Positions 2,374-23,405 of a DNA stretch of 36,692 nucleotides are shown in pieces. The DNA comes from an uncultured Erysipelotrichaceae bacterium. Its GTDB lineage: Bacteria; Bacillota_I; Bacilli_A; RFN20; CAG-826. Under the pieces are notes generated by a model that did no database searches, had not been told where the DNA came from, and was given only the letters and a program-made list of their open reading frames with translations. Within the stretch, counting starts at the first letter, position 1. Every line of letters starts with the position of its first letter. Where the stretch lies: positions 1-36,692 of the forward strand of contig OMVV01000008.1 in assembly GCA_900314585.1 (NCBI GenBank). The letters are read 5' to 3'. The translations under genes were made by a program, and so were the position numbers.

Positions 2374-2748
2374 ATGGCGAAGAAAAAAGATTTAACTTAT
2401 GAAGAAAAGATGCTTGATGCTCTGACAATGCTTCCTAATCCTTTAGAAGATAAAAAGCATCGTATCCATATTTGTTTTGCCAATAACCGCGCAAGAAGTA
2501 ATGAAACGAGATTTGAACACATATCATCATATAGACATGATTTATATCCGGCCGACATCAGGAGGATAGCAAGACACATTAATAAATCAATAATGAAACA
2601 AGATGCCGAACGAAAAGATACCTACAATCTATATATCAAAAGAAATAATTACGGAAAGGAATATATTAAGATATCTTTGGAAATAGACTTCAGAAAATCA
2701 AACACCGGAATCGTTAAAACAATTTTTATCACAAGAAACATGAAATAA
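2374..2748 (+). CDS. Small basic protein, 124 aa; possibly a BECR-fold (phage-type RNase-like) domain
   Basis: The start is the first ATG (2374); an in-frame TTG at 2350 is less likely. The protein is basic (many K/R) and soluble, with no signal or membrane segment. The layout is a central R-F-E-H-I-S-S-Y-R-H motif (about residues 46-55), a helix D-I-R-R-I-A-R-H-I, then two strand-like blocks ending V-K-T-I-F-I-T. This order (His/Arg near a helix, then strands closing on a T-I-F/Y-x-T element) resembles the Barnase-EndoU-ColicinE5/D-RelE (BECR) nucleases found as phage or toxin domains. That assignment is inference from pattern only. No antitoxin-like partner lies next to it. It is followed at once by the ncRNA promoter. 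It could equally be an unrelated small DNA- or RNA-binding protein. Confidence 0.65.
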   Translation: MAKKKDLTYEEKMLDALTMLPNPLEDKKHRIHICFANNRARSNETRFEHISSYRHDLYPADIRRIARHINKSIMKQDAERKDTYNLYIKRNNYGKEYIKISLEIDFRKSNTGIVKTIFITRNMK

Positions 2749-2773
2749 TTATTCCAACATCTAAAAATGTTGT

Positions 2774-2779
2774 TATAAT
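2774..2779 (+). promoter_or_regulatory. Consensus -10 box (TATAAT) of the ncRNA
   Basis: A perfect TATAAT sits 4 nt before the base-paired 5' end of the structured RNA. The expected start is about 2784-2786. The -35 region is weak (TTCCAA at 2752-2757, spacer 16). Confidence 0.65.
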
Positions 2780-2783
2780 ACAG

Positions 2784-2951
2784 TTGTCAAGGGTGGAGAT
2801 GTACGTCCTCTTCCGCTAAGCAGTTATGCTGCCACCGGTGAGTAAACGTCAGCGTACGACCACGGCGCACCTCTTGTAGGTGGTACACAGCGATCCAGGA
2901 AACGCGCTGACCTGGTTGACAAACAATTAATGTCCAACGCGGACATTTTTT
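2784..2951 (+). ncRNA. Structured non-coding RNA of unidentified family with its own promoter and terminator
   Basis: This is a GC-richer island in AT-rich intergenic DNA. The ends pair: TTGTCAA (2784-2790) with TTGACAA (2916-2922). Other stems that I can draw are GGTGG (2792-2796) with CCACC (2832-2836), a hairpin AGCA-GTTA-TGCT inside it, a long-range stem GTCAGCG (2848-2854) with CGCTGAC (2905-2911), and within that CACCT-CTTGT-AGGTG. The result is a closing stem enclosing two arms, about 139 nt. It is followed by an intrinsic terminator (2930-2951). There is no credible open frame. I looked for the SRP hallmark (GGAAG...GCAGC), RNase P and tmRNA signatures and found none. 6S RNA also fits poorly because the structure branches. 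The opposite strand lacks a matching promoter/terminator pair. Confidence 0.7.
2930..2951 (+). terminator. Intrinsic terminator of the ncRNA
   Basis: Stem ATGTCC (2930-2935) with GGACAT (2941-2946), loop AACGC, then a run of T to 2951. Confidence 0.8.
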
Positions 2952-23014: not shown

Positions 23015-23405
23015 GGGGTCGACTTAGTTTCGACAGGGTTGATCGCCCGGCAATAACTGCAGCTGGCTGGTAACCATTCTACCAAACAAAAATAACTGAC
23101 AACAGTTATATGAGAGCTCCTAGAGCTCAATCACTCTGCTTAGCATAAGCTACCCGACATAGGGACCGACACTAGTTGCCGGACAGAGCGTCTTATGAGG
23201 TTTTAGCCTTTCACGCTCATAGTAGACGTCATACCAAAAGGATAGGGAGACACAGTTGACTCGCTAAAGTTTACCGAAATTAAATGAGTCTCGCTTGGCT
23301 AGTTACGATATATGAAGCCCGGCTAAACAACAAATATCGTCTAAGCTGTAGACGTTATTGTGAGGCCTTCTCTGGACACGGGTGCAATTCCCGCCGACTC
23401 CACCA
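23015..23405 (+). ncRNA. ssrA: tmRNA (transfer-messenger RNA)
   Basis: tmRNA rescues stalled ribosomes and tags the nascent peptide. The acceptor stem is GGGGTCG (23015-23021) with CGACTCC (23395-23401), followed by discriminator A and an encoded CCA (23403-23405). The 5' end has the family's G-A-C-T-T-A-G-T-T-T-C-G-A-C block. The tag frame is the only open one after the resume region (AAAATAACT). It begins at GAC 23098 and encodes DNSYMRAPRAQSLCLA, then TAA (23146-23148). Alanine is added first from the charged tmRNA. The tag ends L-A like other ssrA tags, but its Cys and two Arg are unusual. The T-loop reads TGCAATT, with G where Psi55 normally sits. Length 391 nt, longer than the roughly 360 of Bacillus. 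Confidence 0.95.

Follow-up and report, generated by a model that had tools for sequence, protein, structure and literature searches.

A pseudoknotted RNA family beside a predicted BECR-type ribonuclease gene: a candidate type III-like toxin-antitoxin module

To our knowledge, only a handful of families are known in which a protein toxin is paired with an RNA antitoxin, and the classical ones have ToxN-like toxins. The canonical type III toxins ToxN, CptN, and TenpN have a PemK/MazF-like fold. In their loci, the RNA repeats precede the toxin gene, a terminator separates the two, and a single promoter drives the whole (PMC5086642). The locus described here lies on a 36,692-nt stretch of DNA (the window), which is contig 8 of the 1.04 Mb draft genome of an uncultured Erysipelotrichaceae bacterium, and it combines a structured RNA with a gene for a 124-amino acid (aa) protein directly upstream. 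The best supported reading, and one we consider likely to be correct, is a type III-like toxin-antitoxin module, with the pseudoknotted RNA acting by binding to a ribonuclease (RNase) of the BECR type and inhibiting it. This reading is backed by covariation in the RNA, the near-exclusive linkage of RNA and protein gene, the one-way dependence between them, the pattern of gene decay, and the BECR-like predicted fold of the protein.

Structure and distribution of the RNA

The sequence at 2784-2922 encodes a real structured RNA, and the evidence for this is comparative, with strong covariation. Folding energy was rejected as proof of structure: a 143-nt segment gave z = +0.13 against shuffled sequences (z = −1.8 with the terminator included), and since energy alone does not rise above the shuffled background, the case rests on comparison. 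The segments containing helix P1, the pseudoknot, and helix P4 were cut at fixed sequence anchors, and not by complementarity, to avoid fitting; anchors were used because MAFFT alignments misplaced members that lack the variable arm. Among 61 distinct sequences, all 16 of the 16 pairs in P1, the pseudoknot, and P4 showed changes on both sides, and 95.8% of cells were paired compared to 82.3% in shuffles and at most 45% in slid controls. None of 500 shuffles equaled the observed cells paired and covariation score. In the pseudoknot itself, 4 of 4 pairs change on both sides with 97.5% paired, and the six main helices are CAGC/GCTG, CAGT/ACTG, GAGC/GCTC, CGGT/ACCG, CGCT/AGCG, and TAGC/GCTA.

An RNA had first been proposed here from the letters of the window alone, and much of that description holds at the level of sequence. 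The paired ends TTGTCAA/TTGACAA are exact, and compensatory changes were found in them and in the second stem that had been named, GTCAGCG (2848-2854) with CGCTGAC (2905-2911). For the latter, the original prediction was right about the pairing, which is exact and covaries, with the correction that it is not a nested stem closing an arm. Because the CGCTGAC strand sits in the loop of CCAGG/CCTGG (P4), GTCAGC/GCTGAC crosses that helix to form an H-type pseudoknot, with P1 closing outside it.

Searches of related genomes recovered a family of such RNAs. BLASTN found homologs in 10 of 59 genomes, counting that of the window; a covariance model from six sequences found about 119 copies in 62 of 224 genomes of the family. 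With a core model built on 109 copies, the search across 279 genomes of the order gave 136 copies, carried by 71 of the genomes. All of these order-wide matches are in the window's family except for a single marginal one of 30 bits (L142:987-1063, in G053, from a different family of the order), which has promoter-like and terminator-like context and no adjoining toxin gene. An RNA-like match of 29 bits in G075 looks like chance. No match was found outside the order in samples of 395 genomes from the class and 344 from the phylum. An origin in phages, plasmids, or viral contigs was considered and rejected, with no relatives found there and the best viral match to the covariance model (L152) falling inside a coding frame.

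The RNA is patchy among relatives, absent from most of them, and often multicopy. Most loci hold a single copy, with tandem copies at L051, L052, L086, L049, L072, and L075. Copies range from 87 to 177 nt in length and have in common P1, an AAGGTGGARA-like 5' sequence, a near-invariant CGACCACGRCGC core, the P3 hairpin, and P4. The window's long arm, with its predicted GTACG/CGTAC closing pairs, recurs in some copies, and the members of about 90 nt lack it. A second optional domain is formed by a long extra insertion within the P4 loop, bringing the total to 134-177 nt (L049, L072, L075, L009/L039, and L045), and these insertions hold conserved sequence such as TAATAGATGACCTCTAACG. Differing RNA backbones at L043 (three copies), L023, L044, and L031 share one and the same P3 hairpin, CACCAAAATACTAGTATTGGTG, which suggests that copies have exchanged this arm or undergone gene conversion there. 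The near-invariant core may be a site of protein contact.

Conservation of flanking signals points to a transcript of the RNA's own. In 67 of 106 copies, an exact TATAAT precedes the RNA start by no more than 16 nt, versus 4.6% in shuffles. Downstream, 93 of the 106 have a terminator-like hairpin, versus 30% of shuffles; where copies are directly tandem, the second RNA unit is without its own promoter box. In the window, the previously reported perfect TATAAT and terminator (a stem with a T-run) are both there, as is the GC-rich island, with about 48% G+C across 2750-2899 and mostly about 21-41% in the surrounding segments. A generic sigma-70 scan gave the TATAAT at 2774-2779 no score, the −35 consensus not being satisfied. 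An inverted repeat overlaps this −10 box and is possibly an operator for autoregulation (Table 1). Repeats of CAAC/GTTG resembling it were seen by eye at L019, L032, L046, and L018.

No Rfam family matches the RNA, and nothing meaningful appears even at E-values up to 10. The original prediction of an unidentified structured RNA, probably transcribed independently, is borne out by the lack of an Rfam family, the covariation, and the conserved promoter and terminator, and its suggestion of a new RNA class is likewise supported. The Rfam scan of the window returned only the transfer-messenger RNA at 23015-23405 (90 bits), which ARAGORN missed.

Table 1. Coordinates of the features of the locus in the window
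Feature	Position	Strand	Details and evidence
124-aa protein, predicted BECR-type RNase toxin	2374..2748	+	ends 35 nt upstream of the RNA
Inverted repeat ATTATTCCAACAT / ATGTTGTTATAAT	2748..2779		arms 2748-2760 and 2767-2779; overlaps the −10 promoter element
TATAAT, −10 box of the RNA promoter	2774..2779	+	exact match
Structured RNA, 139-nt core, candidate antitoxin	2784..2922	+	covariance model matches in 71/279 genomes of the order; covariation
P1, 5' strand	2784..2790	+	pairs with 2916-2922; 7/7 pairs change on both sides
Proposed P2, GTGG	2793..2796	+	with CCAC 2860-2863; nearly invariant
Variable arm	2801..2857	+	predicted to be closed by GTACG 2801-2805 / CGTAC 2853-2857
Pseudoknot, 5' strand CAGC	2850..2853	+	pairs with GCTG 2906-2909; extends in the window to GTCAGC/GCTGAC
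Near-invariant core CGACCACGGCGC	2857..2868	+	
P3 hairpin CACC...GGTG	2868..2882	+	compensatory changes in a variable stem; loop also variable
P4, 5' strand CCAGG	2895..2899	+	pairs with CCTGG 2911-2915; loop holds the pseudoknot 3' strand; 5/5 pairs change on both sides
Pseudoknot, 3' strand GCTG	2906..2909	+	within the P4 loop; covariation
P4, 3' strand CCTGG	2911..2915	+	covariation
P1, 3' strand	2916..2922	+	covariation
Intrinsic terminator of the RNA	2929..2951	+	stem 2929-2947 and T-run

The linked protein gene

The original prediction missed the linked gene for the predicted nuclease, which lies outside the interval it covered. A protein profile from 38 members was used to search 220 genomes of the family and yielded 55 strong intact open reading frames (ORFs), 54 of which are followed by the RNA on the same strand. 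Across the whole linked set, the gap from ORF end to RNA is 20-48 nt with a single outlier of 123 nt. The lone unlinked ORF lies close to a contig end, 134 nt away, and its genome has the RNA elsewhere. Strong protein matches occur in 48 genomes, every one of which contains the RNA. Another 23 genomes have the RNA and no strong protein match, a few of them (G053, for example) being outside the protein sample. Remnants of the toxin gene, N- or C-terminal, lie 32-47 nt before the solo RNAs at L029, L037, L049, and L096; the eroded forms comprise a C-terminal scrap at L029 and L049, the N-terminal 13 residues at L037, and stop-containing frames at L083 and L096. This one-way dependence, with strong protein matches never seen in a genome that lacks the RNA and the RNA often found alone, is the pattern of toxin-antitoxin pairs.

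The association survives deep sequence divergence. The genome G028 encodes a 162-aa homolog detected by the profile only (E = 3e-12), and 46 nt downstream of it is a diverged RNA that keeps the P1/pseudoknot/P4 plan: GTAGCAAT...ATTGCTAC encloses CAGC/GCTG and GCGGG/CCCGC, with a promoter and terminator and a weak model score of 24 bits. RNA and protein distances are strongly correlated (r = 0.73, with 0 of 2,000 permutations as high), which fits cognate pairing. A still more remote homolog is found at L138 (G153:C3, ORF 356-919); a 100-nt element lies tail to tail with it on the other strand and has by eye what is apparently the same P1/pseudoknot/P4 plan, and we treat it as a lead only. This diverged member has GGGAGT/ACTCC in place of the GTGG/CCAC of P2.

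The 124-aa protein is predicted to be a BECR-type RNase related to the phage MuF-C and PBECR3 domains. Its AlphaFold2 model has a predicted local distance difference test (pLDDT) score of 90.5 and a predicted template modeling (pTM) score of 0.82. Foldseek searches of the PDB gave BrnT, a contact-dependent inhibition (CDI) toxin, and a HigB-type toxin as plausible top matches, and searches of viral models gave MuF-C and polyvalent nucleases at probabilities of about 0.8-1.0. Relatives of the protein match the Pfam families MuF_C (E = 1.7e-5; 25.3 bits with a cut-off of 27.6) and PBECR3 (best E = 2.4e-4). In an alignment of 38 homologs, H49, H55, D61, and R90 are invariant, R41 is near-invariant, and T116 is T or S in 37 of 38. 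Iyer et al. (2017, PMC5512222) describe the PBECR active site as a histidine in an N-terminal helix with a T or S in a C-terminal strand, and the protein shows this same placement, with H49 (38 of 38) in helix 46-50 and T116 in strand 111-120, the last strand. The protein is presumably an active RNase and toxic.

A candidate RNA antitoxin and competing explanations

In the proposed mechanism, the gene at 2374-2748 would encode a small BECR-fold endoribonuclease toxin, and the RNA at 2784-2922, with its own TATAAT and terminator, would be a stable pseudoknotted molecule that binds and blocks the enzyme, as ToxI does with ToxN. Since there is no terminator between the ORF and the RNA, the toxin mRNA would have a single antitoxin copy as its 3' end, and antitoxin in excess would come from the promoter of the RNA itself. 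Toxicity, RNase activity, direct neutralization, and transcription are all putative here, as is any role in phage defense, element maintenance, or dormancy.

Several observations weigh against this mechanism. The toxin-first gene order and the single-copy RNAs are unlike canonical type III systems, and collections of phages and plasmids gave no match. The protein of the window itself matches no Pfam, NCBIfam, PADLOC, PHROG, or PDB sequence family; the MuF_C and PBECR3 matches come from its relatives only and lie under the curated cut-offs, and the Foldseek matches in the PDB have E-values above 0.001. The correlation of RNA and protein distances may be explained by shared descent alone.

The strict protein-RNA linkage and co-variation, along with the highly conserved RNA core, could also be expected if the RNA were a cofactor or guide that activates or aims the nuclease in an active ribonucleoprotein effector, one directed against phage for example. 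We regard this as unlikely, because the RNA occurs without the protein in about 23 genomes and many solo copies, its structure is intact beside eroded nuclease genes, and no segment looks like a variable guide, the strand of the pseudoknot being paired internally. Less probable again is an RNA antitoxin that represses the toxin mRNA, either through base pairing (type I-like) or in a CRISPR-like manner (type VIII/CreTA-like). The RNA does adjoin a likely toxin gene, but it is downstream on the same strand and so not cis-antisense, and 45 pairs examined show no excess complementarity of the RNA to the toxin translation start (mean z 0.03). We give slightly less weight still to a structured recombination or mobility site resembling the integron attC that follows a cassette ORF, with the ORF as cargo: a palindromic element after an ORF and copies that stand in tandem or alone in varied contexts would suit such a site, but there is a single cargo family, a conserved −10 box and terminator flank the copies, and the pseudoknot and sequence-invariant core go beyond a mere palindrome. 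Scarcely credible, finally, is a stand-alone regulatory small RNA unrelated to the neighboring gene or the diverged housekeeping RNA of the original prediction, with signal recognition particle (SRP) or 6S RNA as its first guess; an independent promoter and terminator would allow this, and 6S RNA was not found in the window's genome (G000) by the Rfam model, but SRP RNA is present elsewhere in that genome (G000:C16:1518-1615), the RNA is missing from most relatives, multicopy, and tandem, and this distribution and the linkage to the protein are unlike 6S.

The type III-like module in which RNA inhibits the BECR RNase can be taken a step further. We lean, by a narrow margin over even chances, toward a new class in which a BECR RNase is held by a large pseudoknotted RNA with its own promoter, the type III arrangement having originated independently in this small-genome family and the solo RNAs protecting against related modules, whether through anti-addiction or through immunity. 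If so, the type III principle has had more than one origin and is not bound to a single toxin fold, and the RNA would be a compact inhibitor of a large RNase superfamily that includes RelE, HigB, colicin D, and the phage MuF-C domains. The plentiful solo RNAs would offer a natural test of anti-toxin immunity. The RNA family itself, whose pseudoknot is well supported, is new and occurs next to the predicted nuclease gene in dozens of uncultured bacteria.

Comparison with known systems

Like ToxIN, CptIN, and TenpIN (AbiQ), the module combines a small endoribonuclease-like predicted toxin with an adjacent noncoding RNA containing an H-type pseudoknot, is chromosomal, patchy, and multicopy, and has tandem RNA copies at some loci. 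Unlike in these systems, its toxin is BECR-like and not ToxN-like, the toxin gene comes first with the RNA following under its own promoter and terminator, and the RNA unit of 87-177 nt, built from P1, P3, P4, and an optional arm, is mostly single copy. The protein has no Pfam, PADLOC, NCBIfam, or PDB sequence match to ToxN, CptN, or TenpN. Because gene order, promoter and terminator layout, and toxin all differ, we do not file the module as a member of ToxIN, CptIN, or TenpIN, though it probably works like one.

The toxin class of such systems is not fixed: AvcID pairs a type III RNA antitoxin with a deoxycytidylate deaminase, a toxin that is not ToxN-like (PMC10511110). AvcID differs from the present module in having a deaminase and not a predicted RNase as its toxin, a comparison made without alignment of either RNA or toxin. 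Our search of the open-access literature gave no paper recognizably on an RNA antitoxin for a BECR toxin. The PBECR/MuF-C phage nuclease domains are closer to the protein, with weak but consistent profile and fold matches; the accessible parts of PMC5512222 do not describe an RNA partner for them, whereas the protein here is a stand-alone bacterial chromosomal one of 118-140 aa with an RNA partner, and under the Pfam cut-offs for those domains. The type II toxins of the BrnT, HigB, and RelE type are also among its Foldseek neighbors and belong to the BECR superfamily. No recurring antitoxin-protein gene was seen beside the module's toxin gene; those type II toxins are neutralized by proteins, whereas the recurrent neighbor here is an RNA.
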